Shown here: piece after piece, positions 4,305 through 33,516 of the stretch
Layout: every line of letters begins with the position of its first letter
Position numbering within the stretch: the first letter of the stretch is position 1
DNA from: Candidatus Zixiibacteriota bacterium
Lineage (GTDB): Bacteria > Zixibacteria > MSB-5A5 > UBA10806 > 4484-95
DNA: 39,416 nt
NCBI GenBank assembly: GCA_021159005.1
Contig: JAGGSN010000111.1
Location: forward strand, 1-39,416
Direction of reading: 5' to 3'
Notes under the pieces: model-generated
Database searches by the model: none
The model's input: only the letters and a program-made list of their open reading frames with translations
What the model was told of the DNA's origin: nothing
Translations under genes and position numbers: made by a program

Positions 4305-6341
4305 GTGAAATCTTTTCACCTTAAAACCGGTATGCTGACAGCATTAATTGCAGTATTGCTATTTATTCTTCAGTCATGCTCGGTAAACAAACCCGAGGCG
4401 CCCAGTTGGGAAACAACATGGGACCTTCCGCTAACTTCAAAGACTTACAGTATTGAAGACATTATCGATGAGATGGACTCCGACGACATCATGTTTGATT
4501 CATCGGGCAATCCGTATTTTTCAATCGAGCAAGAGATTGACACTATTTCGGTGGATGACAACCTTAACGCGCCCGGTGTAACCTGTGAGCCGTTGTCAAT
4601 AGAGCTTGGCAATGTCGATATTGACGCTCCGGCAATACCATCCTCTGATTTTAACTTGGATGAACTTGGCATTCCAAATGACGCCGGAGTAATTCCTGCA
4701 CCCGCTACTGGTTCATTAGATAAGAATCTTGATGCTTTTTCAAATTTCTCATTAGCCCAGATAAATCAGGGGATTTTAACAATCGAGGTTGTCAACAATC
4801 TGGGGATAGATATCGATTCGCTGACAATAGCAATTTATAATACAGCCGATTTGCCTGCTGCATCGCCTTTGGGTACCGCTGTATTTGATGGCGGCATCAA
4901 TGACACCGAAACCAAGGCTGATACCATAGACCTTGCCGGCAAGCTAATGAAAAACCAGCTTACCTTAAGGATTTACTATGAAGTATCGGATCAGGCTATT
5001 GGCACGCCGTCGAATGACTTGGTAATCAACAGCGCTTTCCCGAACGGTTTGACTGTTTCGAGCGCTATGGCAGAAATTCCGGCTATATCCAAAGATCTTT
5101 CTCAGGAAATAGAGTTAAGCGATTCCTCAATTATTTATGAGGCGGTTATCGAGGCCGGCACGATGAATTTATTAATAGAAAATAATACTAATCTGCCGAT
5201 GAATATCAGCCTTTTGATACCCAATTTTGTATTGAACCATGACACGTTGTCAATCGATACGAGCATTGCCGGCAGTGCTGCTCTTGATTTGGATATTGAT
5301 TTGGCCAATTATACTTTCAGACCATCCGGCATTTCGTTCCCGCAGACTATCGGGATTGAGGCTGCGGCTGATATTGAGGCTTCCTCACCGACACAATACG
5401 CCATTAACCACACAGATAACATCGATATAACATCAGGGGTTTCGGATATTACATTTATTTCGGTGATGGGTCAGATCAAGCCGACTGAAATCGAAATCGC
5501 ATCGATGCAACAGGCGGTTGAACTTCCCGATGGATTCGAGGATGCTCAATTGACGCAGGCTCGTCTTACCATGACTCTTTATAATAACAGCACAACCGAT
5601 GTGTTTGCAGACATTCTTCTGTCAAGTCAGGCTGGCGACAGCGTTGTCGTTCAGGATACTATCAGGGGTAAGGCATTAGCATCTTCAGGTCCCTTAGCGA
5701 CTGATATTACAGTTGGTTCTTCCACTTTGCGAGATTTTTTAAATCCGGCTCCCGAGGAAATCATTATCAATGGTATGGCTATCTTTAATCCTGCCAATGA
5801 AGACTCGGTTCTTATTACTAAAAGTGATTTCTTTTACGGTGAAGTTGAAATTTATTCGCCGATGGCATTTGCCTTAGCTGACACCGCTGAAATCGATCTT
5901 GAAGCCAGCGATGTAGAAATAGACCCTGACGATATGCCAGATTTCGAGGAAACATTTGTTTATGGCAACATTCAATCCAATTTGACAAGCAGTTTGCCTA
6001 TCGGCGCTAGGGTTACTTTATTTATCAGTACTCTTGAGGATGCCGTAAACGATCCTAATGCCGTTGTTATCGGACCATTCACTCTTGAAAGCGCAGATAC
6101 AGATGAAGACGGTTATTCAATCGAGTCGGTACTTTCAACTTTCAATGATTCACTGACATCGGATGAAATATCAATATTCGATAATGAACAAGTTTATATC
6201 CTGCCCAGAGTTCAGCTTTTGCCGACAGAAGCCAGCGGCAGCGTTATTCAGGGCAGTGATTCGCTCATAGTTCAGGCATCAGCTGAGCTTAGAGTTAAAG
6301 CCGGCGACCATCTGTTTGATGATGATGACGATGACAATTAA
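4305..6341 (+). CDS. Large outer-membrane-type lipoprotein, function unknown
   Basis: A 678-aa exported lipoprotein. The GTG start is supported by AGGAGGG eight bases upstream. The signal sequence ends in a lipobox LQSC, with C25 as the lipidated residue. Ser at +2 would favour outer-membrane sorting under the Lol rule. The mature part is acidic and rich in beta-type repeats of about 100-150 aa with phrases such as ILTIEVVNN, LTLRIYYEVS and ARLTMTLYNNS, suggesting stacked beta-sandwich domains; no named family is recognised. It ends in a run of six Asp then Asn, encoded by GAT/GAC triplets. It is 28 bp upstream of the barrel gene and probably works with it at the cell surface. I see no cohesin signature. 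Confidence 0.85.
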   Translation: MKSFHLKTGMLTALIAVLLFILQSCSVNKPEAPSWETTWDLPLTSKTYSIEDIIDEMDSDDIMFDSSGNPYFSIEQEIDTISVDDNLNAPGVTCEPLSIELGNVDIDAPAIPSSDFNLDELGIPNDAGVIPAPATGSLDKNLDAFSNFSLAQINQGILTIEVVNNLGIDIDSLTIAIYNTADLPAASPLGTAVFDGGINDTETKADTIDLAGKLMKNQLTLRIYYEVSDQAIGTPSNDLVINSAFPNGLTVSSAMAEIPAISKDLSQEIELSDSSIIYEAVIEAGTMNLLIENNTNLPMNISLLIPNFVLNHDTLSIDTSIAGSAALDLDIDLANYTFRPSGISFPQTIGIEAAADIEASSPTQYAINHTDNIDITSGVSDITFISVMGQIKPTEIEIASMQQAVELPDGFEDAQLTQARLTMTLYNNSTTDVFADILLSSQAGDSVVVQDTIRGKALASSGPLATDITVGSSTLRDFLNPAPEEIIINGMAIFNPANEDSVLITKSDFFYGEVEIYSPMAFALADTAEIDLEASDVEIDPDDMPDFEETFVYGNIQSNLTSSLPIGARVTLFISTLEDAVNDPNAVVIGPFTLESADTDEDGYSIESVLSTFNDSLTSDEISIFDNEQVYILPRVQLLPTEASGSVIQGSDSLIVQASAELRVKAGDHLFDDDDDDN

Positions 6342-6369
6342 GATGATGATATTTTTGGAGGATATAAAG

Positions 6370-7635
6370 ATGTTGAAGAAATACATTTCGATAGCTATGG
6401 CGATAGCAATGATAGCTTTAACTGCCAGTCCGCTTTATGCCTGGAGCACAGCCAACCCCAGAGCGTTGGCGATGGGCGGCGCCTATACAGCCTTAGGCGC
6501 CGACAATGAGGCGGCCAGTTTTAATCCAGCCAACCTGGGCTTATCAATCCATCGTATTTTTACGTTGAATCTGGTTAATGTTGGGATTGGCATAAAAAAT
6601 AACAGTTTTTCGCTTAATGACTACAATACATACACTGGGCAGTTTTTAACGGATGACGACAAGGACGCCATTTTAGCCAAGATACCTGCTGAGGGTTTGA
6701 AGTTTAATGTGATAACGGAAGCAGGCGGCTTGAATTTTTCGGTCTGGCGGCTGGCGTTTAATTTCCGCGGACTTGGCGCCACAAAGTTTAATATCGATAA
6801 GGACCCCTTTGAACTGCTGTTTTACGGCAATGCTGTAAAATCTGAAATTAGCCTTGATAACACCAGCGGCGAGGCTTTGGCTGTGGGGGATGGTTCGGTT
6901 TCGTATGGCCATCCGCTTATGAAATGGAAAGGCGGCGAACTTTCAGTTGGCACGACTATCCATTACCTTTACGGCATAGCCTATGAAAAAATTACGCAGT
7001 CTGAGGGTAATGTTGCTACGACTGATGATGGTTTCGAGGGCAGCGCTATAATGAAAGTGAAATCGGCTCTTGGCGGCAGCGGAACAGCTTTTGATGTAGG
7101 CGGCACGGTGCTATTCGAAAACGATTGGGTATTCTCTGCCTGCTGGCATAATCTATATTCGAAAATAAACTGGACTAAAGATACAGAAGAACTGGTTTAT
7201 ACTTTCAATATGGACCCAATAAATTTTGACGCTATTAACGACAGTGAAAACAGCGATTCTCTAATTGAATCGAATGACACTACTTATTCCATAGAGTCAT
7301 TCTCATCGAAACTTCCGGCGGTGGTAAAGCTTGGCTTGTCCAGATCATATCACAAGCTTACTTGGGCTGTTGATTGGGAACAGGGAGTTTCATCGGGAGC
7401 CTGGCAGGCGGTAACACCGCGTTTGTCGGCTGGTTTGGAATACAGACCTATCGGTGTATTCCCTCTGAGGCTGGGAACCTCTTTTGGCGGCGATAGAGGC
7501 ACTATTTACTCAACCGGATTCGGAATATATATGGGACCAATGCATATAGATATGGCCATCGCCAATAACGGTTCGATTAAGCCAAACGGCACTAAGGGCG
7601 TGTTGTTTGCTTTCGCAATGGGCTTAAGATTCTAA
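6370..7635 (+). CDS. Outer-membrane beta-barrel protein, PorV/OmpP1(FadL)-like
   Basis: A 421-aa protein. I take the ATG at 6370, preceded by GGAGGATATAAAG, over an in-frame upstream ATG at 6316 that overlaps the lipoprotein gene and lies in its poly-Asp codons. From 6370 it has a clean signal peptide (MLKKYISIAMAIAMIALTAS, cleavage after PLYA). The mature protein opens with NPRALAMGGAYTALGADNEA and FNPANLG, the hallmark N-terminus of PorV/OmpP1/FadL-fold barrels. It continues as alternating amphipathic strands and ends GVLFAFAMGLRF, with the terminal aromatic Phe typical of BAM-inserted barrels. It is the middle gene of a three-gene operon. Possible roles are a transport channel or a type IX-style shuttle; the sequence does not decide. 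Confidence 0.85.
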   Translation: MLKKYISIAMAIAMIALTASPLYAWSTANPRALAMGGAYTALGADNEAASFNPANLGLSIHRIFTLNLVNVGIGIKNNSFSLNDYNTYTGQFLTDDDKDAILAKIPAEGLKFNVITEAGGLNFSVWRLAFNFRGLGATKFNIDKDPFELLFYGNAVKSEISLDNTSGEALAVGDGSVSYGHPLMKWKGGELSVGTTIHYLYGIAYEKITQSEGNVATTDDGFEGSAIMKVKSALGGSGTAFDVGGTVLFENDWVFSACWHNLYSKINWTKDTEELVYTFNMDPINFDAINDSENSDSLIESNDTTYSIESFSSKLPAVVKLGLSRSYHKLTWAVDWEQGVSSGAWQAVTPRLSAGLEYRPIGVFPLRLGTSFGGDRGTIYSTGFGIYMGPMHIDMAIANNGSIKPNGTKGVLFAFAMGLRF

Positions 7636-7664: not shown

Positions 7665-9395
7665 ATGATTACGCCAATGAGAAATACTTACTGTCTCAGG
7701 CTGCTGAAATCATTTTTGCTGGCGATTACGGCGGGCATTATCCTGCCCGCCGCTCTCCCGGCAATGCCGCCATTTCCGCAGGAAAACGGCAGTATGAAAG
7801 CTAACCAAGTGCCGCAATCATATTATATGAAAAACAGAAACAGATTACATGAAAACGGTGTAAATGCGCCCGGTGACTTGCTGACAAAGCGAAAAACAGG
7901 ATTGACGAAAGCTAATGTTTCGAGAGAAATAAATATTCTGGCAATACTAATCGATTTTTCAGATAAACCCGCTCAAGCTATGGCGGCATATTTTGACACA
8001 TTGATTTATGAAGATATTTCGGGGTCTGTTATGAATTACTATAAGGAAGTCTCATACAACACCCTGACTATCACTACGGCAGTGATTCCCTCAACGTTTG
8101 GCTGGCAAAGAGCACCCGAAACTTATGATTACTATTGCAATGGCCAAAACGGACTTGGCGGTTATCCTAATAATGCCCGGAAATTAGTTGAGGATGCGGT
8201 TGATCTTGTTGACCCTTATGTTGATTTTTCTAATTATGATAATGATTCCGATGGCGAGGTTGACGGCCTTATAATCATTCATTCCGGTACGGGCGCCGAA
8301 AAAACCGGCTCAAGCGATGACATTTGGTCTCATAAATGGACTATTAATGCGCGGCTTGTCGATGGCGTATATGTTAAAACCTATACGATGGACCCTGAAT
8401 ACTGGAATTATCCGGAAGATATGACCTGCGGCGTTTTCTGCCATGAATTGGGACACATGTTCGGCTTGCCTGATTTATATGATACGGATCTCTCATCAAA
8501 CGGCATCGGCAAATGGAGCCTAATGGCTTCAGGCGCCTGGAATGGGACTTTGGGCAATTCACCGGCTCATCTTGATGCCTGGTGCAAGGAACAGCTTGGT
8601 TTTGTGATAACTGAGCAATTGGTTAGCAATCAGACCAATATTTCGATTCCGGCAGTAGAAAATAATCCAACGGTTTATAAATTAACAACGGACAGTTTAG
8701 CTAACGAGGAATATTTCCTTGTGGAAAACAGGCAGCAAATCAGCTATGACAGCCACCTTCCCGGCAATGGCTTGCTGATTTGGCATATTTATAATAGCCA
8801 GAGCAACAACAACAGCGAATGGATGCCTGAAAATGGCGTAGCGAGCAGTACTAACAATTATAAGGTAGCGTTAATTCAGGCTGACAACAATTGGGATTTG
8901 GAAAAATGCATTAATCGCGGCGACAGCGGCGATCCATTCCCCGGCTTATCCGGCAATAATATATTCAATAGTAATTCCAGTCCAAATTCATATTCATATA
9001 GCGGCACAGCTTCCAATGTGTCGGTTGTAAATATCAGTAATTCCGGCGCTATAATGACTGCCGATATGGGGATTGGCATTGAGGGAAACAGTCATGATGA
9101 TAATCAGACTGCCGGCAACCTGGTATTAAACCAGAATTTCCCTAATCCTTTTAACTCGATGACTACAATCAGCTTCCAGTTGAAACAGGCGGGTTTTGCC
9201 GAAATTGCTATTTTTGATATTTCCGGTAGATTGGTCAAGAAAGTATTTTCGGGAAATCTAAGCGTTGGTTTACATAATTTCGTATGGGATGGCTCTAATC
9301 AAAGCGGTTTTAATGTCGGTTCGGGCGTTTATTTATACCGTATTAGCTTAAATAATACCGACAGCTTATATCGTAAAATGTTATTAATTAAGTAA
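7665..9395 (+). CDS. Secreted M6-family metalloprotease with C-terminal sorting domain
   Basis: A 576-aa exported protease. An N-terminal hydrophobic signal (LLKSFLLAITAGIILPAALP) precedes a propeptide-like region, then the catalytic domain with CHELGHMFGLPDLYD. H260, E261 and H264 form the HExxH zinc site, with D270 the likely third ligand as in the immune inhibitor A (M6) family. A downstream VENRQ and GLLIWHI stretch is also typical of M6. From about residue 485 a FlgD-like/T9SS type A C-terminal domain begins (LNQNFPNPFNSMTTISF, then IFDISGRLVKKVF) and ends in MLLIK. The start has GGAGAGAGAG ahead; a second ATG four codons later is also usable. Likely role is extracellular protein degradation. 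It is last in the operon, 29 bp after the barrel gene. Confidence 0.92.
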   Translation: MITPMRNTYCLRLLKSFLLAITAGIILPAALPAMPPFPQENGSMKANQVPQSYYMKNRNRLHENGVNAPGDLLTKRKTGLTKANVSREINILAILIDFSDKPAQAMAAYFDTLIYEDISGSVMNYYKEVSYNTLTITTAVIPSTFGWQRAPETYDYYCNGQNGLGGYPNNARKLVEDAVDLVDPYVDFSNYDNDSDGEVDGLIIIHSGTGAEKTGSSDDIWSHKWTINARLVDGVYVKTYTMDPEYWNYPEDMTCGVFCHELGHMFGLPDLYDTDLSSNGIGKWSLMASGAWNGTLGNSPAHLDAWCKEQLGFVITEQLVSNQTNISIPAVENNPTVYKLTTDSLANEEYFLVENRQQISYDSHLPGNGLLIWHIYNSQSNNNSEWMPENGVASSTNNYKVALIQADNNWDLEKCINRGDSGDPFPGLSGNNIFNSNSSPNSYSYSGTASNVSVVNISNSGAIMTADMGIGIEGNSHDDNQTAGNLVLNQNFPNPFNSMTTISFQLKQAGFAEIAIFDISGRLVKKVFSGNLSVGLHNFVWDGSNQSGFNVGSGVYLYRISLNNTDSLYRKMLLIK

Positions 9396-11397: not shown

Positions 11398-11784
11398 TAG
11401 TTATGCATCAAGTTAGTAAAGAGCTGAGCATCTACAATTATTTGCGTAATAACCTCATTAGGGTAATAAAGTAATTTTACCCTGAAGTCGAGAAGGATAT
11501 TTTAATTAACTATTCGTTCTAATCACAAGGAGGATGTTAGCAATAATCTAATTAACAAATTTTATCATCAAATTAGGTCTGCCATTATAATTTTAATCCA
11601 AAGAGAATCAAGTATGCCAATATTGATTTCTATTGAGTTATAATAATTGGCATTTCCGATAATTAGTATTTCAACGATAGCTTTAATAGCTCTTGAATAT
11701 TTTAAAATTTAATTGGTTTTTACATCAAGCGGGGGTGAATTTATGTTTTATCTGATTTGAGAATGAGTGATAAGGAGGAGTGAG
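11398..11784 (+). promoter_or_regulatory. Long AT-rich 5' leader of the first exoprotein gene
   Basis: No ORF of useful length. Two hairpins stand out: AGGGTAA/TTACCCT (11460-11466 with 11477-11483) and ATGCCAAT/ATTGGCAT (11614-11621 with 11646-11653). An AAGGAGGATG at about 11527 would start only a five-codon peptide with almost no spacing. The true Shine-Dalgarno AAGGAGG is at 11772-11778. A long structured leader suggests post-transcriptional control or mRNA stabilisation, by inference. Confidence 0.5.
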
Positions 11785-14700
11785 TTGCATAAAAGTATTT
11801 TTATTTTAGCGGTTATTGTTTTGGTAGTAAGTTTTATAACTGTTGGCGCAATAGCCGACTGGGAACCGGGAGACAATTACGAGATGCATTTCCCGCAGCT
11901 GCCGGATGAAGATGGCTGGGGTGTTAATGCTTCCTGGCCTATGACTTTGGCAGACGATTGGCTATGCACCGAATCAGGCTGGATTCAAGATATTCATTAC
12001 TGGGGTTCATGGAAACATGATTATGCAGGAGAAATCGAGTACTTTATATTGAGTATCCATGATGACATTCCCGACAGCCTGAATCCGTCCGGCTACAGCA
12101 TGCCGGAAAACCCGCCCTTATGGACATTAGATGTGCCTTATAATGATGTTATAGTCGTTCCATTTACTCCGGATACTTTGGAAGGCTGGTTTGACCCAAA
12201 CAGCGGCGAAATTCTTGATAATGACCATTTACAGTATTTCCAATACAATATCTTTTTAGATGAGGACAACTGGTTTTGGCAGGAGGAGGGTACTGTTTAC
12301 TGGCTGAATATCTCTGCGGTTTTGGCAGGCGCCCAACCTGATACGATTGAGTGGGGTTGGAATTCATCCGAAAATCACTGGAATGACAAGACTGTCTGGT
12401 GTTTAAACCCCGACTTCTACTGGATAGATATTTACGAACCGGCGATACCGATTTCAAACACTTTTACTTCTTACTTAAATGAAAGCGGCGATTCTGCCTG
12501 GGGTTGGGGTTCGGACGCTTATGGTGAGGGCTGGTACTACTATCCGGAATCCAACTCGTGGAATATCTGGTTCTATGACCATCCGATGGATACTACTCGG
12601 AAAAAAATTATCAGGATTGAATTCGATATAGTTAAATACACGCATTCTTGGCCCTCAATGGCAGTAGTATCGTTATGCTGGTCGAACCAGCTGTGGGTCG
12701 ATACAACAAGTCCGCCGGTTGAATCATTGGAAGAGGAATTCATAGACAGTGAAATAATCCTTGCCGCTGAAAATTACGAAGGGTTGTGGACATACGTTTT
12801 GGATATTGAGGATTTCAACCCTGCCTGGGTCTCGGTTAAAATTCAGGGAAATAACTTCTCGCTTATGAATGGGGTCATTGATCATGCCTGCTATGGTTCG
12901 CTTGATATGGCATTTGTGATTTCCGGCGAATCCGGCCGTCCAGCACCGCAAACCGGCGACCCTGATTACAACGACGCACCCTACATGCCAATTGCCTGCC
13001 ATCAAGATCAAACATACGAGCGACTGGGGCAGCTATCGGATAATGAGCCTGCTCCTATTTATGATGATGACACTCAAGGCATAACCAATGACGACGATGG
13101 CTTAATTGGCGCAGTTTTAGCTAATGGCTACCTGACATTAAGATTCGTAGTTTCTTCCTCGTATTCGGCTAATCCCGGTAGTTTCCTGTCATGCTCGGAA
13201 GATTGTGTGGATGCCTGGGTTGACTGGAACGGCAACGATAGATTTGAACACGCATCCGAATATATTGGAAGCTGGACAGGCAATCCGATAACCGGCTGGA
13301 ACGGCCCTTTTGGTCGGGATGCGGTGATTGGCACAATTACCGGTTTCGTAGGCATCAGAGAGCCGGGATATTACCCGATTCGACTCCGTCTTAACTGGGA
13401 ACAATATACAGGAATACATACGCCAAGCCCGGGAAGCGGCATTATCGGAACTTGCGATGATTGGGGTGAGGTTGAAGACGAGGTGTTTTATATAACTCCC
13501 GGCGGCGGTAATTGGGACTATAAAATGCACTTCCCGCAGCTTCCTGATGAAACAGGCTGGGATGCTAATGCTACCTGGCCGATGATATTGGCCGATGACT
13601 GGATGTGCTCGGAGACAGGCTGGGTTAAAGATATTCATTTTTGGGGTTCATGGCGTCAAGGCTTAACAGGAAACATTGACAGTTTTTTAGTGCGAATCCA
13701 TTATGATGTACCGGCAAATCAAAGTCCTACCGGCTACAGCATGCCCGGTCTTTTAGTCTGGGAAAATACAATAGGGCGAAGTATGTTTGAAGAATTTCCT
13801 TTGGCAGCGGATTCATTCGAGGGTTGGTTTACTCCCGCCGAGATTGTAACTGAAGTAAATCCTATGGATAACTGGGAATACTGGCGCTATGATATACTAC
13901 TTCCCGACAGCTTGTGGTTCGAGCAGGAAAACGGCGTTATCTACTGGCTGAGTATATCTGCTTTTATCGAGGATATGCTTCCCGATACGATTGTATGGGG
14001 TTGGAAATCATCCAGCGACCATTGGAATGATAACAGCGTCTGGGTACAATTTCCTGATAATTTCAGAAGAGAATTGTATGAACCGACATTCCCGTATACT
14101 CCTTTCGATATCAATGATGACGGATATGCAGCAACCGTAGCCGATCTTATTTTACTGATCAACTATTTAAATGGAGTTTCGCTGCCGCCATACGAGGTTG
14201 ATGGCTTCTATCCGGCGGCAGATTGTGACGGCAATTGCGTGATTGATATTAACGATTATTATAATTTGGCTGGCCATATAATTGATCCCTACAGCATTAC
14301 CCTCTCTTACTGCACATATTATCCGCCGGATGATATTATTCAATCGCTCGATCTGTCGTTTGTAATCACTGGCGATACATTAGAATCGGCGCCCGATAAT
14401 AATGACTGCGAAAATGCTTCCGCAATAAATGATGGCGATACGCCGTTTTCTACGTTAGGTTCAACAACTGATAATAATGGCAACTGCAGTTTAGCTTTAC
14501 AAAAGGATATATGGTTTAGATATACCGCTGCCTGCACCGGCACTTTAACAGTTGATTTATGCTATTCTAATTTTGACACCTATGTCGGTATTTTTGATAA
14601 TTGCAATGACATGAACTGCATAGCGACAAATAATGATGGCTGCGGTATATTAAACGGTCCATCTTATGTACAATTTGTTGTGAGTGCCGGAATTGACTAC

Positions 14701-15153
14701 CTGATTTGCGTTGGCGGCAATGGCGGCGCAACCGGCAGCGGCATAATTACTATCACCTGCGCTCCTACTGTCAACTGCTTCAATTATCTTACCGGCGATG
14801 TTAATATGCATATCGGTTTATGGCCGCCGGTAGTAATCGGTTCGGATGTTACATATCTGATTAATTATTTCAGAGGCATAATAGCCTCTCAGCCATGTTT
14901 TATGAATAATCCAGCAAGTGATGTTCCATACTTCTGGGCCTCGGCAGATGTTAACGGCGACTGCATAGTCATGGGCAGCGATGCTACCAAGCTGGTTACA
15001 TATTTTAGAGGTACTGGCTCAATTGATTATTGTATCAGCTATACGCCATGCTGGCCACCTCTTCCCCCCGACCCACCCTCCGGCTGGCCAAATTGCCAGA
15101 TACCGCCGGTTTTAAAGGGTTCGACGATAATACCATCTCAATCCGGCAAATAG
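11785..15153 (+). CDS. Giant modular secreted protein with GEVED, PPC-like and dockerin-like modules
   Basis: A 1122-aa exported protein. I choose TTG at 11785 because AAGGAGG ends six bases before it and the protein then opens with a signal peptide (MHKSIFILAVIVLVVSFITV). An upstream in-frame GTG at 11767 would place the Shine-Dalgarno inside the ORF. Domains in order: repeat A (about 30-215, YEMHFPQLPDEDGWG), a linked beta region (225-385), a GEVED domain (395-570, ending GEVEDEVFYI), repeat A' (575-770, YKMHFPQLPDETGWD), a dockerin-like pair (about 773-835, DINDDGYAATVADLILLINY), a PPC-like domain (about 872-995), and a C-terminal dockerin-like module (about 1000-1122) shared with the neighbouring exoprotein. 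Probably surface-bound or released; no catalytic motif is recognised. It is followed by a perfect hairpin. Confidence 0.85.
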   Translation: MHKSIFILAVIVLVVSFITVGAIADWEPGDNYEMHFPQLPDEDGWGVNASWPMTLADDWLCTESGWIQDIHYWGSWKHDYAGEIEYFILSIHDDIPDSLNPSGYSMPENPPLWTLDVPYNDVIVVPFTPDTLEGWFDPNSGEILDNDHLQYFQYNIFLDEDNWFWQEEGTVYWLNISAVLAGAQPDTIEWGWNSSENHWNDKTVWCLNPDFYWIDIYEPAIPISNTFTSYLNESGDSAWGWGSDAYGEGWYYYPESNSWNIWFYDHPMDTTRKKIIRIEFDIVKYTHSWPSMAVVSLCWSNQLWVDTTSPPVESLEEEFIDSEIILAAENYEGLWTYVLDIEDFNPAWVSVKIQGNNFSLMNGVIDHACYGSLDMAFVISGESGRPAPQTGDPDYNDAPYMPIACHQDQTYERLGQLSDNEPAPIYDDDTQGITNDDDGLIGAVLANGYLTLRFVVSSSYSANPGSFLSCSEDCVDAWVDWNGNDRFEHASEYIGSWTGNPITGWNGPFGRDAVIGTITGFVGIREPGYYPIRLRLNWEQYTGIHTPSPGSGIIGTCDDWGEVEDEVFYITPGGGNWDYKMHFPQLPDETGWDANATWPMILADDWMCSETGWVKDIHFWGSWRQGLTGNIDSFLVRIHYDVPANQSPTGYSMPGLLVWENTIGRSMFEEFPLAADSFEGWFTPAEIVTEVNPMDNWEYWRYDILLPDSLWFEQENGVIYWLSISAFIEDMLPDTIVWGWKSSSDHWNDNSVWVQFPDNFRRELYEPTFPYTPFDINDDGYAATVADLILLINYLNGVSLPPYEVDGFYPAADCDGNCVIDINDYYNLAGHIIDPYSITLSYCTYYPPDDIIQSLDLSFVITGDTLESAPDNNDCENASAINDGDTPFSTLGSTTDNNGNCSLALQKDIWFRYTAACTGTLTVDLCYSNFDTYVGIFDNCNDMNCIATNNDGCGILNGPSYVQFVVSAGIDYLICVGGNGGATGSGIITITCAPTVNCFNYLTGDVNMHIGLWPPVVIGSDVTYLINYFRGIIASQPCFMNNPASDVPYFWASADVNGDCIVMGSDATKLVTYFRGTGSIDYCISYTPCWPPLPPDPPSGWPNCQIPPVLKGSTIIPSQSGK

Positions 15154-15167
15154 ATTAAGGTAGAGTA

Positions 15168-15196
15168 GTGAAGTCAGAAGTAACTTCTGACTTCAC
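15168..15196 (+). terminator. Perfect 14-bp inverted repeat right after the first exoprotein gene
   Basis: GTGAAGTCAGAAGT, one central A, ACTTCTGACTTCAC: all 14 pairs match. It begins 15 bases after the stop codon. There is no T-tract, so it may be an mRNA-end stabiliser or a dispersed repeat and not a classical terminator. A bulged relative is at 243-266, after proS. Confidence 0.5.
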
Positions 15197-15313
15197 GCAT
15201 GTTGTTGACAAAAAGTATTAATTAGTAAATTTCATAAGAGCATTTAGTAGGTTTAGTTTTGACCGCAGGAGCTTGCGCCAAAAGTTATAAAAGTCTATAT
15301 CCCATTGCGCTTA

Positions 15314-15339
15314 TAGGGGCATATTGCAATACGCCCCTA
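15314..15339. repeat. TAGGGGC...GCCCCTA palindrome
   Basis: TAGGGGC-ATATTGCAATAC-GCCCCTA, with an inner ATTGCAAT palindrome. This GGGGCATATTGCAATACGCCCC type of element is found dispersed in many bacteria. Related fragments with GCAATACACCCC occur near 21368 and 37030. Confidence 0.6.
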
Positions 15340-15450
15340 CGCGATGCCCTTGCAAATCAATGGCTTATCTACAAACAATACATCTGATTTATTAGCAAAA
15401 TGTCCGCAATGATTGCTCAATCAATCTTTTATCACAGCCCCGTAGTGAAA

Positions 15451-15544
15451 AACCCGACGTTTCGACTCTGATAAGTAATTTACTGAGGGAAAGAGGTTTA
15501 TATTGCCGAGACAAGGTGTCGGGTTTTTTCTCGCCTTCGGCGAG
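15451..15544. repeat. AACCCGAC...GTCGGGTT paired arms with adjacent hairpin
   Basis: AACCCGAC (15451-15458) and GTCGGGTT (15518-15525) bracket about 60 bases and are followed by CTCGCCTTCGGCGAG (15530-15544). The arms match 11254-11302. The rest of 15200-15750 holds no gene; a GGCGCTTGGCAGCCA motif copy lies at 15665-15681. Confidence 0.55.
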
Positions 15545-15664
15545 CCGGAATCCGATCCGCTACTGTCCTACCAATAATTTATAGGTTTTAAGAATTATTG
15601 AAATATTTCCTTTATGTTGGTTATTTATCGATATGACCTTCTGTTAAAATCCTGATTTGCAAAA

Positions 15665-15681
15665 CGGCGCTTGGCAGCCAA
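15665..15681 (+). repeat. GGCGCTTGGCAGCCA motif, copy 3
   Basis: CGGCGCTTGGCAGCCAA, essentially identical to 28734-28750 and to the reverse complement of 3078-3092 apart from the central base. The core TTGGC-A-GCCAA is itself an inverted repeat. Confidence 0.6.
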
Positions 15682-15757
15682 TCGGAAAGCAAAAATTAAC
15701 GATACTTTTAAATGGGTAACCTTATACGTTATCGCAGGCGAATTCTTTAAAAAAAGC

Positions 15758-15786
15758 TTGACAGTTTGAAAATAATTATATACAAT
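15758..15786 (+). promoter_or_regulatory. Promoter of the second giant exoprotein gene
   Basis: TTGACA (15758-15763), exactly 17 bases, TACAAT (15781-15786). The predicted start is near 15793, about 620 nt before the ATG at 16413. The same -35 and spacing are used by the neighbouring exoprotein gene at 11363-11391. Confidence 0.65.
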
Positions 15787-15792
15787 ACAGCA

Positions 15793-16412
15793 GAGGTAGC
15801 AAACATGGTTTTGTATCTAAAAGCATCCTTAATTATTCTAAATCGTATTAATGTTTACGAACTATTAACTAAAATAAAACTTTAAGGAATTTTAAGCGTT
15901 TTATGAAAACGCAAGCAAGAAAAATATGTGAATTAATTACTTCATAAGCAACAAATAAATAACTTTAAGTGGAATTTAGGTATTAAGTTAACCTCGAAGC
16001 AAATAGCAATTTTAATGATGGGAGGAGAAGTATAAAAGCATACGTTAAGGAATCAGCAAAATAAACTTTCTTTAGTGTTTTATTTTCTTCGGATTTGTTT
16101 GGGATAGCAAAACATCCCAATTTAAGTAAAAAAGTTACTGCTTTCAGATGTTTTAAAAATGAGCATGTTATATGCTTTAATAAAAGCAAGAGTGATTAAA
16201 TTAAGAATTTTGAAGCGGTAGATTTTGCCAAAACAATCTGAATATGTAAAATATACTTAACGGATGTTTAGAAAGGAATAAAGAGTAAAGAGAAGTAATT
16301 TTTTAGGGGTAAAGTTGTTAATTAATTTAATTTAGCGGAAATCAGGTAACTCGTTAGATGGTAATGTAATTAAACAAAAATTAACTCCAATTTTTTTATG
16401 GAGGAAAAGTAA
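15793..16412 (+). promoter_or_regulatory. Very long AT-rich 5' leader of the second exoprotein gene
   Basis: About 620 nt without a convincing ORF. Visible hairpins: GCGTTTT-ATG-AAAACGC (15896-15912) and TTGGGAT/ATCCCAA (16099-16105 with 16114-16120). Purine-rich patches (GATGGGAGGAGAAG near 16016) could bind ribosomes but lead only to a six-codon frame. The gene's own ribosome site is GGAGG at about 16400-16404. No known riboswitch pattern is recognised. Confidence 0.45.
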
Positions 16413-19400
16413 ATGAAAAAATGTCTTTTATTGACCGCAATTTTAGTTTTAGCTTTCAGTTTTGCTTGGGCTGATGTTGTTGACAATAATTCAGCGGTTT
16501 TATCTACCGATAATACTGCCATTTCAAAAGCCGCTATTAGCGAAAGTGCCAATAGCCCTATGGCCAACGGCACTGTTCTAAGTGTTGACATGAGAAGCAC
16601 TGATATTCAACATCGCACAGTTGGCACCCCGATTACGGTCAAGCCTGCTCAGGGAGCCGCTTTAGATGCTCCGCCTAATGATTCCTGTCAGAATTGCATT
16701 GCAATTTCCGGCACTGGTACTCAGGATGGCACCTGCGTCGAGGCGACTGTTGACTGCCCGGCTTTGAACACCAACGAGTGCGTTTGGTTTTGTATTGATG
16801 CACCTAATGCCACAAACGACATTGAGATAGACTTCTGCAAAACCTATACCGAACTTGGCGGCGATATCTGGACTATCTGGGCGGTATTATTCGAAACCTG
16901 TTCATGTGATACCGCTGATTTTATAGCTCCGGATTTCTTTGCATGGGGCGAAGATCCTGCTTGTAATTATCAGCCAATTTACCGCTTCTATGCTCTGCCC
17001 GGTCCGGCCACATATTATCTGCCGGTTTACGTGCTTGATTATTATGACGCATTATGCGCATTCCGCTTCGATTATGCTGTTACGGACGCTTTCGTTCCGC
17101 CGCAGGGCGACATGTGTGATGATCCGTTCATGATTACATCATTCCCATATACGGATGCAAATAATAGCTGTGACTTCCGTCATGACTACGGCTATCCGGG
17201 TGAAGACGTTGTTTATGAATTCACCTTGACCGAATGCAAAGACGTAACTGTTTCATTGTGTAATTCACCAGACACATTTGATACTTATCTGTGGCTGATG
17301 GATGATTGCGGCGTTCAAGCTGTTGCCACTGATGATGATGGTTGTATGTCTTCCGGCTATGGCCTATCCCGCATAGAAGGCTATCGTCTGCAAGCCGGCA
17401 CTTACTGGATTTTAGTAGATGCCTATAGCGGCAACTGCGGCAATTATGTTTTAGATGTTACTGTAGAAGATTGCCCTCCGCCTTGCGATTACAACGACTG
17501 CACAGAAATCGATTATGATTCTCTGCTTTATGATGGCGGCACTCTCGTTTATGAGGGCAATAACTATGGCGCAACCCTCGATCCGAACTGCGACTCCTTA
17601 ACTACTGCTATGTCTTGGATTTATTTCCATACGGAAGCTCAGCTTGATGTTAAGCTTGAGTTCTGCGGCACCGATCCGGTTAGAACCGGTTACTATCGTA
17701 TTTTAAGTCCATCCTGTCCTTGCCCGCCAAACGGCTGGGTCTTTGCCCAAGAAGAAAACGATACTGAATGCGGTGACGGCAACACTACTCTGTATTTCAA
17801 AAGATTAGCTGCCGGATCTTATTGGTATCCTGTCATTGGTGATGCCTCGGAAGGCCCATACTTGATTACTTTAACAGCTGGTCCTCCTACAGGCTATTGC
17901 GACTACACCTGTACACCGGGCGCTACAGCTGAAGGCGAAGTCTGCGGCGACGATGACAATGGCGGCTGCAACTCCGCACCTCCAATATTTGGTTCGGTTA
18001 GTATCGATGAACATATTTGTGGTACTGTTTGGGGTGATGGCGGCACAAGAGATACCGATTGGTTCATTTGGACATCACCTCCTCAGGATACTATGATTAT
18101 CTGGAGCGCTGCCGGATCCTGCCCGATTGTTTTAATTGTTATGGAATTAGATAGTATGAGTACAGATGGCGCGGATACCTGCTGCTATACATATTTAGGC
18201 GGTAATGGTATTGCTGAATGCGAAACAACCTCTGTTATAACAGCTATTGATGGCAATTCCGACATAATGTTCTTCGTCTCTACTGACGGAATATACAGCG
18301 GTTATCCATGTGCGGATGGCCCGACTGGCGACGGTTTCCCGTATGAAGCCTGGCTTGCCTTCCAATATTCGGGTCCTCCTGTTAATGATGATTGTGCTTA
18401 TGCTTTCGAGATTGGCGAAGTAACCGACTATCCATTCACCAATATCGGTGCTACAACCGACAATAACGGCGATTGCGACCCAGACCTGCAATCAGATGTC
18501 TGGTATAGATATACGCCCTCCAGTACTGGAATGGCTGAAGTCAGTCTCTGCGATGCCACTCTTTATGATGCATTCCTCGGCATCTTTACAGATGACTGTA
18601 TCAACCATGAATGTATAGTTTATGATGACGACGGTTGCGGGCAAGGCGGCGGTCCTTCAAAAGCCTCATTCATGACAACCTTTGGTGAATCCTACCTGAT
18701 CTGTATCGGCGGCTGGGCCGGCGGTATGGGTAATGGCGAATTTGACATAACAATCGCAGCGCCTCCGGAAATCAGAGTCGATCCAACAACGGTTGATGGC
18801 ACTGCTCCTGAAGGCGGAATGGATACCGAAACTCTTAATGTTTACAACGATGGCGAGATGGACCTCGACTTCGATGTTATCGTTGAGCAGAATACCGGCG
18901 CTCCATTCAGCGCAAGCGATGTTATGGCTCCAATCGCAAAAACCCCGACCTTTGACAATGTTTCTCTCTCTGGCGATGTTTCGATAAAATCTGCCGTCAA
19001 TAATAGCGGCTCTATGCCATCGTTAAACGACCCTGAAACGCTTAAGAGCGTTTCTAAACATATTGATTTGAGAAGCGGTTCTAATGATGAAACGGCTACC
19101 GAAATGTATTGTGACCTGATAATGACAGGTGCGCAAATGTATGTTTTGGGTGCGTTTGGTGATGGTTCCGAAGCGGCAGTATTCATGGATCCTGCCGTTT
19201 GTGGTGATCCTTCCGGAACATATCCCTTCCAAATTGATTCTCTTAATATAGCTGTTTACAGCAACAACACTGTTGAAGAAGATGTTAGTTTCGCAGTTAT
19301 TCTTTACGAAGCTGATATGACAGATCCATCCTGCCCGGTTCCTGGGGCCTGGATCACTAATACACCTGTTTACAGTTATACATTCCCAGCTGGCGGCGCT

Positions 19401-20702
19401 TTCTATGGTTTTGTTCTTGATGCACCGCCTTTGACTTGCGTAAATGCTCCGTTCTTCATGTCCGTTTATTATCCTGACGCGCAGGAATATGTTGCTTATT
19501 GTATGACTGATTTTGCGACTCCGCCTCCTGTTCCTTGCTACTCTTATTTCAATGATAATGCTGGCAGTGGATGGCTTTCTTTATTTGATGCTTTCGCGTA
19601 TGATGCCGACTGGAGTGAATACTACTATGTCAGCGGTCGCACCGAAACTTGCGAAGCTCCTGCTTGCACCGTCTCATGTCCGGGTGAAGGTATTGCCGAA
19701 GCTGAAGTTTGCGGCGATAGTGATAACGACGGTTGTAATGGCGATCCAGTTGTATTCGAAGATATAGCTTGGAATACTATTGTATGTGGTACCGGCTACT
19801 CAACCGATGCTGATACTGGCGGCAATTTCAACAGAGATACCGACTGGTACAACTTCACGACTGCTGGTCTGACCAACATTGATATTCGCATAACTTCCGA
19901 ATTCCCATGCAACATGTATCTGTTAGATGCCACAAATTGCGACAGCATAGGAATGTATGCGGCAATTTCTCTGCCGAGTCCATGTACGGAAGGACGGATT
20001 TATGGCACGTTAGGTGCCGGCACTTACACGATATGGGTTGGCCCGACTGTTGCCAGTGTTTATTGTGATGAATCCGGTGATTACGGCGTAGATTACAATC
20101 TTTCCTTAGATGCTGAAATTGCCTGGTTGTACACCGACATCGATGCGGGCACCGTTGTTGCGCCAGGTCCTGTGCCTGTCGAGGTAACAATGGATGCTGC
20201 TCAGCTTACTGAGGGCGATTATTACGGAAACGTGATATTCGAATCCAATGATCCGGTAACTCCGACAACTACTATTCCGGTTCACTTCCTAGTAACCGCA
20301 GGCAGTGATTGTTATGAATACATGGCTGGCGACGTTAACCAGTCATTAGGTCTGTGGATACCGAGAGTAATCGGCGGCGACGTTACCTTCTTGGTTAACT
20401 TCTTCAAGGGCTCACCTACGTCGGTTCCTTGTTATATGCACAACCCAAGCGCTGGCAACCCATACTTCTGGGCCTCAGCTGACGCTAATGGCGACTGTAT
20501 TGTAATGGGCAGCGACGTGATTAAGATGGTAGGCTACTTCAGAGGTGCTCAGCAGATATCGTATTGCGTAGATTACCTGCCTTGCTGGCATCCCGCAGAT
20601 CCAGCTTTCGATCCTCCTCCAGCAACAGCACCAGCTGGCTGGCCGAATTGTGAAACTCCTCCTGTTACTGGTTCCAAAATAATTCCGACTCAATCTAAGT
20701 AA
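16413..20702 (+). CDS. Giant Cys-rich modular secreted protein with PPC-like repeats and dockerin-like C-terminus
   Basis: A 1429-aa exported protein. The ATG has GGAGGAAAAGTAA upstream and starts a clear signal peptide (MKKCLLLTAILVLAFSFAWA). Several beta-sandwich modules of 120-160 aa follow, many PPC-like (GYRLQAGTYWILVDAYSGNC; VWYRYTPSSTGMAEVSLCD at about 655-780). A Cys/Asp-rich block occurs twice, at about 500 (GEVCGDDDNGGCN) and 1089 (AEVCGDSDNDGCN). Two regions resemble Ig-like choice-of-anchor domains (about 785-830 and 1235-1300). The last 125 residues are a dockerin-like module with two EF-hand-type loops and a Pro/Cys tail, shared with the 1122-aa protein. The many Cys suggest disulfides after export. 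No catalytic residues are recognised. An adhesin, scaffold or S-layer-type role is inference. Confidence 0.85.
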   Translation: MKKCLLLTAILVLAFSFAWADVVDNNSAVLSTDNTAISKAAISESANSPMANGTVLSVDMRSTDIQHRTVGTPITVKPAQGAALDAPPNDSCQNCIAISGTGTQDGTCVEATVDCPALNTNECVWFCIDAPNATNDIEIDFCKTYTELGGDIWTIWAVLFETCSCDTADFIAPDFFAWGEDPACNYQPIYRFYALPGPATYYLPVYVLDYYDALCAFRFDYAVTDAFVPPQGDMCDDPFMITSFPYTDANNSCDFRHDYGYPGEDVVYEFTLTECKDVTVSLCNSPDTFDTYLWLMDDCGVQAVATDDDGCMSSGYGLSRIEGYRLQAGTYWILVDAYSGNCGNYVLDVTVEDCPPPCDYNDCTEIDYDSLLYDGGTLVYEGNNYGATLDPNCDSLTTAMSWIYFHTEAQLDVKLEFCGTDPVRTGYYRILSPSCPCPPNGWVFAQEENDTECGDGNTTLYFKRLAAGSYWYPVIGDASEGPYLITLTAGPPTGYCDYTCTPGATAEGEVCGDDDNGGCNSAPPIFGSVSIDEHICGTVWGDGGTRDTDWFIWTSPPQDTMIIWSAAGSCPIVLIVMELDSMSTDGADTCCYTYLGGNGIAECETTSVITAIDGNSDIMFFVSTDGIYSGYPCADGPTGDGFPYEAWLAFQYSGPPVNDDCAYAFEIGEVTDYPFTNIGATTDNNGDCDPDLQSDVWYRYTPSSTGMAEVSLCDATLYDAFLGIFTDDCINHECIVYDDDGCGQGGGPSKASFMTTFGESYLICIGGWAGGMGNGEFDITIAAPPEIRVDPTTVDGTAPEGGMDTETLNVYNDGEMDLDFDVIVEQNTGAPFSASDVMAPIAKTPTFDNVSLSGDVSIKSAVNNSGSMPSLNDPETLKSVSKHIDLRSGSNDETATEMYCDLIMTGAQMYVLGAFGDGSEAAVFMDPAVCGDPSGTYPFQIDSLNIAVYSNNTVEEDVSFAVILYEADMTDPSCPVPGAWITNTPVYSYTFPAGGAFYGFVLDAPPLTCVNAPFFMSVYYPDAQEYVAYCMTDFATPPPVPCYSYFNDNAGSGWLSLFDAFAYDADWSEYYYVSGRTETCEAPACTVSCPGEGIAEAEVCGDSDNDGCNGDPVVFEDIAWNTIVCGTGYSTDADTGGNFNRDTDWYNFTTAGLTNIDIRITSEFPCNMYLLDATNCDSIGMYAAISLPSPCTEGRIYGTLGAGTYTIWVGPTVASVYCDESGDYGVDYNLSLDAEIAWLYTDIDAGTVVAPGPVPVEVTMDAAQLTEGDYYGNVIFESNDPVTPTTTIPVHFLVTAGSDCYEYMAGDVNQSLGLWIPRVIGGDVTFLVNFFKGSPTSVPCYMHNPSAGNPYFWASADANGDCIVMGSDVIKMVGYFRGAQQISYCVDYLPCWHPADPAFDPPPATAPAGWPNCETPPVTGSKIIPTQSK

Positions 20703-21431: not shown

Positions 21432-22565
21432 TTAAAAGCCTAACTTATCGTCTTTTTTATCATCCATAGAGAACTCAGACCAGCCGCGGTCGGAGGCGGA
21501 GGTTATACCCTTGCATCTGAGGTCGAAATCTTCAGGGTTGGATGACTGAGCCAGCGCTTCTTCATAAGAAATCAAACCGGAACGGAATAACTTCATAATT
21601 GACTGGTCGAAACTCTGCATCCCGTACTGGACAGTTCCCTGCTCGATGAGTTCAGGTATTCCGGGAGTTTTCATCTGGTCGATAATATATTCCCTTATAG
21701 AAGCGGTGCTTATCATGATTTCTATAGCGGGAATTCGACCGGGGCCGTCCGAGCGCGGCAGCAGACGCTGGCAGATAACCGCTTTTAATGTACCCGCCAA
21801 CAGTAAGCGGATTTGCTGATGCTGATGCGGCGGGAAGAACGAGATGATTCGGGTGATTGTCTCAACAACGTTCATAGTGTGAAGAGTAGTAAGTACAAGG
21901 TGTCCGGTATCGGCTGCAGTCAGGGATATGCCCATAGTATCGGCATCGCGAACCTCACCGATTAGAACGATATCTGGGTCTTGACGGAAAGCATGACGGA
22001 GCGCCGTGGCAAAGCTTTCGGTATCGCCGCCCACTTCGCGTTGTGAGATAATCGATTTTTTATCGCGGTAAATATATTCTATCGGATCTTCAATAGTCAG
22101 GACGTTTTCAGAGCGCGTCGAGTTGATATGCTCGATTATCGATGCCAGCGTGGTCGATTTGCCGGAACCGGTAGTGCCGGTAACAATTACCAGCCCTTTC
22201 CTCGCCTCGGCAATATCTTTAATTGTGTCCGGAAGGTTTAATTCCTTATAAGTCGGAATTACTGTATTAACATGCCTTATCGCTATACCGACAGTGCCTC
22301 TTTGTTTGTAGAGATTAATACGGAACCTGCCCATCTTGGAAATTGACAAAGCCAGGTCCATCTCTCTTCGCTGATGGAATTTTTGAAGTTGAGATTCTGT
22401 TAAAACCTGCGACAGAATTTTTTCCATATCCTGCGGCATTAAAATCTGGTCATCTGCTGAAAAAAGCCTGCCGTCTATTCGCAAGGTAGGTCTTAAGCCA
22501 ACCCTTAGATGAATATCAGAACCTTTACGAGTCAACATCTGTTGGATAATTTCTTTAAATGTCAT
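21432..22565 (-). CDS. pilT: Type IV pilus retraction ATPase PilT
   Basis: A 377-aa hexameric secretion ATPase that powers pilus retraction at the inner membrane. The N-terminal PAS-like domain (about 1-105) contains the GSDIHLRVGLRPTLRIDG signature. Walker A is GTTGSGKST (130-138), the Asp box is around 157-165 (LTIEDPIEY), Walker B is PDIVLIGEVRD (197-207) and the His box is GHLVLTTLHT (221-230). The C-terminus is about 30 aa longer than the shortest PilT proteins and is charged. The ATG has GAGGGGGA upstream. It is last in an operon with a TPR protein, an aminopeptidase and accB. No pilin or pilB gene is in the window, so it may serve pili or adventurous motility encoded elsewhere. Confidence 0.95.
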   Translation of the reverse strand: MTFKEIIQQMLTRKGSDIHLRVGLRPTLRIDGRLFSADDQILMPQDMEKILSQVLTESQLQKFHQRREMDLALSISKMGRFRINLYKQRGTVGIAIRHVNTVIPTYKELNLPDTIKDIAEARKGLVIVTGTTGSGKSTTLASIIEHINSTRSENVLTIEDPIEYIYRDKKSIISQREVGGDTESFATALRHAFRQDPDIVLIGEVRDADTMGISLTAADTGHLVLTTLHTMNVVETITRIISFFPPHQHQQIRLLLAGTLKAVICQRLLPRSDGPGRIPAIEIMISTASIREYIIDQMKTPGIPELIEQGTVQYGMQSFDQSIMKLFRSGLISYEEALAQSSNPEDFDLRCKGITSASDRGWSEFSMDDKKDDKLGF

Positions 22566-31896: not shown

Positions 31897-33516
31897 TTAC
31901 TTTAAATATACCATTTTTGCTTTTGCCTGCTGATTATTGATTATTAGATTATAATAATAAGCTCCAGCGGCAATATCGGCCATGGGTTTCCAGGTTATTC
32001 TATTCATACCGTTCACGGCAACACCATCAAACCTATCAACTAATCGGCCGTTTATATTATATATGTCAAACTTATAATCATTCGAGTTTGAATTCCAGTA
32101 AAAACTTATATCACATGCCGAATTAAACGGATTAGGATAACTGTCATATAAGATAAACTTTTCGGGTTCTAATAAATTTCCTGTAAGTATGTTTGTCTGA
32201 GTGTCTTCCAAGTAGGCATTATACTCATAATTGGCGGAATCTGACTCTGTAGAATATTGATATGGCCAGGTTATTGTTAATATTACTTTATCACACTCAT
32301 CAAAGTTATTAATCCGCATCGATATTTGTTCATTAAAACTAAGGCTTCGCGTATAGATTTCAACCGGCCTATCGAGATATACTGCAGCCACAGCAATCTC
32401 CTCAGGATAGTTGTAATCTGATAAGAACTCCAGAATGAGGTCTTTTTTAAATATGCCAACACTTTCGAAACATATATAGGCAAGCCCCATATTTTCGACA
32501 GCTTTCGGAGTATCAATCCAGCCGGTTGGATAGGAACTATGACTTGCGGATACCGGTACAGTTGCCGGAAATTGCTCGCTCTCCTCGAAAAAACCCGGTC
32601 TATAATTGTTATTAGTGAAATAATTCCAACATCCAAAAACTGCAAATTCCCTATCGAAATCAACCTCTTCTTCTAATAATGCCGATTCAATAGCATATAT
32701 AGAGTAGTCTAAATGGATAAGTTTTAAAAATATTTTATTAATTATATCAGGACCATAATTCTGGCGCAGGTATTCAGCAAAAACCCAAGCTCCATACATA
32801 TGCGCGCCGCCAGTCATGTAAATCGAATAATCAATCTTATTGTAATATTTCTCAAGATAGTAGTATATAATGTTAAGGTCATCAAAAACAATCTCATTCG
32901 CCCAACAAGCCGAAAGTTCATACCACCATGGTTCTTCATCGCAAGTATTAGCCCTGTATGCCATCTGAATAGCGTGGAAATATTCATGAGAACAGACAGC
33001 CTTAAGCATCGGAATCGGGTCATTGGGGAAATGTACGCAGCGCAAATCTCTGCCTATGAATATATAAGACGCGTACGCTTCACGGTCGGGATAATAATCT
33101 GATTGAAATTCCGGCACAGTTAAGCCGGCAACATTTGTAACATAAATATCATAGCTATCATCGCCGCCAAAACCTTCATCCGGCGGAGGTACGTCATACC
33201 CCAAAAGTTCGATGTAAGTATAACGGCTTAACTCAAGAAATTCAGCTATTCTATTTATATAATCGGGCACATCGTCGGCAGGGTCTATATCCTCATGAGG
33301 ATGATAAATAACATAATCGCCGGTAGTATCATAATGGATTTTAAAATTATCGCTATCGAAAGTGCAGAGCAGGTCGGGGCGTTCCAAAACCAATGGCGGC
33401 CAGTTTCCCGTATCTTTGGGGGCAATAATCAAATCACCTGTAGTGAAAGATTGCTGGCCAAACAGCAAGCTCGTCAGGATAACGATGAACACAAATATTT
33501 TAATGAGTCTCGGCAT
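31897..33516 (-). CDS. Secreted HExxH putative metalloprotease with C-terminal sorting domain
   Basis: 539 aa from the ATG at 33516, which begins a clean signal peptide (MPRLIKIFVFIVILTSLLFG). A TTG at 33537 is an alternative. A possible zinc site is SHEYFHAIQ (H177, E178, H181), followed by a conserved-looking EPWWYELSACWANE, resembling the putative metalloproteases annotated as MXAN_6640-like. The C-terminal about 85 residues form a FlgD-like/T9SS type A sorting domain (LYDSYPNPFNSACDISFYW, then IYNINGRLVDRF) ending MVYLK. It overlaps scpA by 17 bp and its stop abuts the scpB frame, so a secreted enzyme sits inside the condensin operon. Its substrate is unknown. Confidence 0.85.
   Translation of the reverse strand: MPRLIKIFVFIVILTSLLFGQQSFTTGDLIIAPKDTGNWPPLVLERPDLLCTFDSDNFKIHYDTTGDYVIYHPHEDIDPADDVPDYINRIAEFLELSRYTYIELLGYDVPPPDEGFGGDDSYDIYVTNVAGLTVPEFQSDYYPDREAYASYIFIGRDLRCVHFPNDPIPMLKAVCSHEYFHAIQMAYRANTCDEEPWWYELSACWANEIVFDDLNIIYYYLEKYYNKIDYSIYMTGGAHMYGAWVFAEYLRQNYGPDIINKIFLKLIHLDYSIYAIESALLEEEVDFDREFAVFGCWNYFTNNNYRPGFFEESEQFPATVPVSASHSSYPTGWIDTPKAVENMGLAYICFESVGIFKKDLILEFLSDYNYPEEIAVAAVYLDRPVEIYTRSLSFNEQISMRINNFDECDKVILTITWPYQYSTESDSANYEYNAYLEDTQTNILTGNLLEPEKFILYDSYPNPFNSACDISFYWNSNSNDYKFDIYNINGRLVDRFDGVAVNGMNRITWKPMADIAAGAYYYNLIINNQQAKAKMVYLK

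Follow-up and report, generated by a model that had tools for sequence, protein, structure and literature searches.

An elaborated dockerin module at the C termini of secreted proteins in Candidatus Zixiibacteriota and its exchange with T9SS tails on C25 proteases

Two large exported proteins that end in the same module

The window analysed here, a stretch of 39,416 nucleotides that makes up positions 1 to 39,416 of contig JAGGSN010000111.1 (assembly GCA_021159005.1, Candidatus Zixiibacteriota bacterium), encodes two large proteins that carry related C-terminal modules (Table 1). Carrier 1 comprises a signal peptide, two DUF7901 domains (Pfam E 5.8e-81), a sub-threshold GEVED match, an internal dockerin-like unit, a GBD-like region and the C-terminal module, referred to below as the long form; carrier 2 comprises a signal peptide, PPC-like repeats and a BACON-like domain, followed by the same type of module. 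The last 126 residues of carrier 1 and the last 131 residues of carrier 2 are 57% identical over 131 columns (E 1e-41; 63% identity as counted by a multiple aligner), a likeness well beyond chance. An earlier reading of this DNA, made from its letters alone (the sequence-only reading), had described the last approximately 120 residues of the two proteins as aligning from end to end and had listed their common motifs; the alignment bears this out and all of the motifs are present. The folded core of copy 1 corresponds to approximately 14773-15108.

Table 1. Positions in the window of the two carrier proteins, their C-terminal modules and the internal unit of carrier 1
Feature	Position	Strand	Details and evidence
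Carrier protein 1	11767..15153	+	1128 aa from GTG, 1122 aa from TTG at codon 7
Carrier protein 2	16413..20702	+	1429 aa ORF
C-terminal elaborated dockerin module, copy 1	14773..15150	+	E 1e-41 to copy 2; AlphaFold; Foldseek
C-terminal elaborated dockerin module, copy 2	20307..20699	+	alignment to copy 1; profile match
Putative calcium loop 1, copy 1 (D9-D25, 17 residues vs usual 12, insert around GLWPP)	14797..14847	+	profile-profile alignment of long and short forms; column conservation
Putative calcium loop 2, copy 1 (D59-D70, canonical 12 residues, DVNGDCIVMGSD)	14947..14982	+	conserved D59, N61, D63, D70
C-terminal strap, copy 1 (C87-C108, CISYTPCW...GWPNC)	15031..15096	+	invariant C87, W105, P106, C108; pLDDT block means 95-97
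Putative calcium loop 1, copy 2 (DVNQSLGLWIPRVIGGD)	20331..20381	+	gap-free alignment with copy 1
Putative calcium loop 2, copy 2 (DANGDCIVMGSD)	20481..20516	+	gap-free alignment with copy 1
Internal dockerin-like unit, carrier 1 (residues 780-834)	14104..14268	+	best stretch for Pfam Dockerin_1

The internal unit of carrier 1 (FDINDDGYAATVADLILLINYLNG...ADCDGNCVIDINDYYNL) lies upstream of the C-terminal module and is of another type; at this unit the protein matched Pfam Dockerin_1 with a whole-protein E of 4e-4, under the gathering score, and the first half of the unit resembles the dockerin unit of T9SS-tailed cohesin proteins (L127). With regard to sorting tails, Pfam Por_Secre_tail did not match either window module, while it did match two other window proteins (9138-9380 and 31912-32139), consistent with the earlier observation that neither carrier ends in a PNPFN tail. 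The window also encodes a predicted outer-membrane beta-barrel protein (6316-7635; RALAMGGAYTALGADNEAASFNPANLG), PorV/FadL-like by eye, the gene for which lies directly upstream of that for a T9SS-tailed M6-like protease.

Anatomy, predicted fold and descent of the long form

The long form follows the pattern YLPGDxNMxxGLWPPxVIGxDVTYLVNYFKG...PCLLDGFWASADANGDCxVxGSDVIRLVNYFRG...YCxDYxPxW...GWPNC. Across 93 long-form modules, W17, C42, C87, W105, P106 and C108 are invariant and C64 is kept in 99%, and the loop 2 residues D59, N61, D63 and D70 are kept in 96-100%; loop 2 is thus canonical and conserved, while the 17-residue loop 1 has no clear counterpart of the Asp at position 5. In addition to the four near-invariant cysteines there is an optional, covarying pair, one cysteine immediately preceding the module and the other lying at position 93; both were present in 12 modules, neither in 71 and one only in 3 (Fisher p 7.5e-12, uncorrected for kinship), and this co-occurrence suggests that the pair may form a third, optional disulfide.

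An AlphaFold model of a trimmed 112-residue target, built from an alignment of 117 sequences that included short forms (see below), reached a pLDDT of 96.5 and a pTM of 0.87 across all 112 residues, with helices at residues 23-33 and 68-78; with the 29 window-genome long-form modules alone, pLDDT was just 48.6. Because the high pLDDT covers all 112 residues, the C-terminal strap ending in WPNC is, in this model, part of the folded unit. When the predicted structure was compared with the PDB by Foldseek, the best 22 matches were all dockerins, mostly out of cohesin-dockerin complexes (e.g., 4dh2_D with probability 1.00 and 3ul4_B with a target-normalised TM of 0.79); E-values were modest (0.015 and above), which is to be expected of a domain this short. 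Structure prediction, which had been proposed as a check on the sequence-only reading, returned a dockerin fold with two helices modelled.

Sequence libraries recognise the long form poorly. Pfam Dockerin_1 gave copy 1 a score of 15.2 bits, below its cut-off of 22.9, and did not match copy 2, and at E <= 0.01 it matched 4 of 29 long-form modules; NCBIfam had no match to the module, and a search of PDB sequences gave marginal dockerin matches only (E 0.06). The same genomes carry a short form, with the pattern CDYxPGDINGDGxVIGSDVTYGVNYFRG..PPPDSCWN..WLYxAADANGDCxFIGSDITYLVxYFRG..CPQTPP, and 11 of 16 such modules matched Dockerin_1. Long and short forms are aligned by hhalign with 99.8% probability (E 9.5e-29), and according to this profile-profile alignment the long form is set apart by five additional residues in the first calcium loop and by the C-terminal strap. 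Because the homologous short form matches Dockerin_1, the long form is a derived dockerin and no unrelated signal; its origin from dockerins is clear, and it represents a lineage-specific elaboration of the type I dockerin. The earlier description of a dockerin-like form that departs from type I by its insertion, its cysteines and its tail is upheld. The idea that went with it, of a distinct signal, holds insofar as the profile does not merge fully with Dockerin_1, but gives way to descent from a dockerin by way of the short form. As far as these libraries show (i.e., mostly no match in Pfam and none in NCBIfam), the remodelled form is undescribed.

The distribution of the module was judged by a profile search of 133 genomes of one phylum. 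The long form (>=142 bits) was found solely in the window genome and in the sister-genus genome Ca. Zixiibacteriota Gpa_9; other genera of the order had shorter matches, of 92 bits and below, and the remaining phylum outside the order had no match at E 1e-15. One apparent intermediate, GDANMGVASWPTFLEGSDV...FPAC, was seen in a genome of the same family (G002, L144:4685-7345). A contig scan with two peptides from the window copies gave matches in Gpa_9 only, which says little on other phyla because the queries were narrow. Searches of open-access full-text literature found no paper that joins dockerins with Zixibacteria and none that joins Zixibacteria with T9SS.

Copy number, placement and tail exchange on C25 proteases

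Profile searches with a profile built from the two window copies gave 57 matches, 32 of them strong, in the window genome (3.66 Mb, 97% complete) and at least 114 in Gpa_9; the module is hence not confined to the two paralogues, whereas such confinement is what the sequence-only reading had named as a refutation of its proposal. In Gpa_9, many carriers, all with modules of their own, are encoded by genes that directly follow one another. Gene runs of this type, with a long-form module ending each protein, were seen on contigs C37 and C208 (L131 and L129), and ORFs of 198 and 226 aa on C208 look like a recent local expansion. On contig C39 of the window genome, two long-form modules (18471-18827 and 21515-21829) lie approximately 3 kb apart and are identical over the shared part; the second lies in a truncated ORF, and the pair may be the product of recent local duplication or of misassembly.

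A WPxC end could be recognised in 88 long-form proteins; in 86 of these the module was C-terminal, and 71 had a signal peptide as judged by a simple hydrophobicity script (not SignalP), several of the others being truncated ORFs. The sequence-only reading had regarded the tail as constant, which does not apply to the family as a whole; the WPxC cysteine lies within two residues of the stop in 39 of the 88, and the terminal IIPxQS, while common to both window proteins, is no general feature of long forms. Module tails end in WPNCE before the stop or in a short polar extension, with no hydrophobic helix. An anchor of the sortase or PEP-CTERM type, which would call for a motif, a C-terminal hydrophobic helix and a basic end, was therefore ruled out on sequence. 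Internal copies are few (C124; L128:18745-19998; L132:3232-6309). Domains identified in carriers (n=31) included CarboxypepD_reg (10), SdrD_B (7), beta-helix (5), Peptidase_C25 (4) and DUF7901 (2), as well as Ig and cadherin types. What emerges is a remodelled branch of dockerins with more than 100 copies in one genome, the cargo of which consists of proteases and adhesin-like proteins, not cellulases.

The C25 proteases allow for a direct comparison between the module and T9SS tails. The 18 Peptidase_C25 proteins of the window genome comprise 7 with a T9SS tail, 4 with a long module, 6 with a short module and 1 PorU-like protein; the corresponding numbers in Gpa_9 are 7, 3, 4 and 1, in addition to 2 proteins cut by contig ends and 1 TPR-type protein that is not cargo. 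To assign tails in the window genome, matches from separate searches were paired where contig position and open-frame length agreed, and in some proteins the tail was seen directly. No C25 protease of either genome carries both a module and a T9SS tail, and Por_Secre_tail did not match the module-tailed ones; if tails were independent, the chance of such perfect exclusion would be 1/19448 for the 17 cargo proteases of the window genome and 1/3432 for the 14 of Gpa_9, although paralogues are not truly independent. When the tail labels are mapped onto a maximum-likelihood tree of 32 C25 domains, 12 changes are required, compared to a mean of 12.1 for shuffled labels; counting well-supported branches only, no fewer than 7 changes between the module and the rest are forced. 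Differing tails are found within sister pairs supported at 100/100 (G1_C16_9662, long, with G1_C49, T9SS; C210, T9SS, with C165, long) and within a four-member group with the same support (C49 and G1_C10, short; C45 and G1_C250, T9SS); C45 and C49 are 54% identical over 1223 residues, and C210 and C165 are 48% identical over 1204 residues. Since these swaps occur between close relatives, the module family and the T9SS tail are interchangeable on this enzyme family, as if the two tails were alternative address labels. We did not find exchange of a dockerin module with T9SS tails in the literature searched, and the many exchanges on one protease family represent natural paired constructs for testing each tail. 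A separate, conserved pair of C25 proteins (L203/L219; G000:C195 and Gpa_9 C381), which have a degenerate PNPV tail and are the top C25 match in their respective genomes, probably represents PorU, the T9SS sortase.

Cohesins, the docking reading and known systems

Pfam cohesin profiles matched in 16 of 18 genomes tested, and cohesins were found throughout the phylum, including in genomes without the long form; the T9SS translocon SprA is also present. A phylum-tuned cohesin profile identified 6 stretches in about 4 proteins of the window genome and 17 stretches in Gpa_9, with three stretches at most in any window-genome protein; no multi-cohesin scaffoldin was seen. Cohesin-like domains with T9SS tails are encoded in the C146 cluster of the window genome and in its Gpa_9 counterpart C182 and are hence kept between genera; in the C146 protein, a T9SS tail comes after a dockerin. 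Four genera of the family share a small secreted cohesin-like protein (C65), which is 68, 55 and 42% identical to its counterparts in the three other genera and the G002 copy of which has, by eye, a lipoprotein-like signal; in addition, a 257-aa protein of Gpa_9 contains a cohesin together with a short dockerin. Candidate cohesin-like partners, for which the sequence-only reading had proposed a search, are thus present, several of them T9SS-tailed, but few. A long-form carrier on G000:C31 (L173:1963-3570), a 536-aa ORF that is possibly 5'-truncated, shows a weak likeness to cohesins at residues 288-336 and may likewise unite cohesin and dockerin in one protein.

We consider it probable (approximately 60%) that the module serves, outside any cellulosome, as a dockerin by which exoproteins attach to cohesins at the cell surface, and a docking or anchoring role at the C terminus, as the sequence-only reading had proposed, remains the best reading. 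Dockerin descent, predicted fold, placement, copy number, exchange with T9SS tails and the presence of cohesins and the translocon all support it. Carriers would leave the cytoplasm via Sec by means of their signal peptides; the module would fold round two F-hand loops that bind calcium, with two or three disulfides and the WPNC strap as braces, and would then bind a cohesin-like partner at the surface, so that secreted proteases, beta-helix proteins and Ig-type proteins would be placed there as the T9SS tail does for others. Several cohesin proteins carry a T9SS sorting tail and would therefore sit on the surface. The two halves of the module are near-identical (VIGxDVTYLVNYFRG and VIGSDVTxLVxYFRG) and stay constant while the N-terminal domains of the carriers vary, which fits one shared receptor. 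Two findings count against docking: cohesins are scarce (6 stretches vs 57 module matches in the window genome, 17 vs at least 114 in Gpa_9), and module carriers have no T9SS tail, so that docking by itself does not account for their exit from the periplasm.

Because cohesins are few and no outer-membrane route is evident, two further readings retain some weight. The module could itself direct export or sorting from the C terminus, as a second signal of this kind with a dockerin fold and no cohesin partner, and be read by T9SS or another outer-membrane machine. Its position as the last domain, its repeated swapping with T9SS tails that it never accompanies on C25 proteases, the lack of any other visible outer-membrane passage in its carriers and the excess of copies over cohesins are all compatible with such a signal; we nevertheless regard it as unlikely, since the module has the fold of dockerins that bind cohesins (the T9SS CTD fold is Ig-like, unlike the dockerin fold), the same genomes encode cohesins, the internal copies would be impossible for a C-terminal signal, and the C146 protein has a T9SS tail after its dockerin. 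Alternatively, the module might bind a T9SS-tailed cohesin in the periplasm, with the folded pair leaving through SprA, which would account for replacement of the T9SS tail by the module on sister proteases; we hold this route to be quite unlikely.

A cap that is stabilised by calcium and disulfides and either shields the C terminus or mediates self-association, with no dedicated receptor, would fit the strongly conserved cysteines, Trp and Gly/Pro, the compact predicted fold and the presence of the module on many unrelated carriers, but appears improbable, as two conserved, near-identical helix faces would be superfluous for a plain cap and exchange with a sorting tail points to location, not stability. 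While dockerin fold and cohesins would also be expected of a classical cellulosome, in which enzymes on a multi-cohesin scaffoldin degrade plant polysaccharide, none of the 25 domains seen most often in carriers is a glycoside hydrolase and the best scaffold candidate of the window genome has only two or three cohesin stretches, making this account very unlikely.

Among known systems, the module resembles type I dockerins (PF00404; e.g., C. thermocellum Doc435 and Doc918, PDB 4dh2 and 3ul4) in its putative tandem F-hand calcium motifs, its near-identical halves, its predicted fold and its C-terminal site on secreted proteins, and differs in its length (112 residues vs 57-79 in most matched PDB dockerins), its 17-residue loop 1 with an invariant Trp, its four to six cysteines, its WPNC strap and its scores, which are mostly under Pfam thresholds. 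The same-order short form (CDYxPGDINGDG...CPQTPP) is a direct homologue that is also C-terminal, occurs on C25 proteases and is swapped with T9SS tails, but has a canonical 12-residue loop 1, lacks the WPNC strap and has its fourth common cysteine at the N-terminal side. The T9SS type A sorting domain (Por_Secre_tail, PF18962) shares the C-terminal position on the C25 family, whereas the window modules and the module-tailed C25 proteases have no match to it. Non-cellulosomal dockerins are already known (PMC6461901, PMC8542988, PMC9012536). For the 'planctosome' of freshwater Planctomycetes, a non-cellulosomal cohesin-dockerin system has been proposed for peptidases, in a different phylum and with another anchor, a lamin-tail domain (PMC6461901). 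In Ca. Stygibacter (Cloacimonadota), enzymes with signal peptides, including a C25 peptidase, have C-terminal dockerins, and a cellulosome-like complex has been proposed around a multi-cohesin scaffoldin of 3,755 aa with a T9SS CTD (PMC8542988), a precedent for the docking reading; compared to that complex (PMC8542988), the genomes studied here have few cohesins, many more proteins bearing the tag and a dockerin that has been remodelled.
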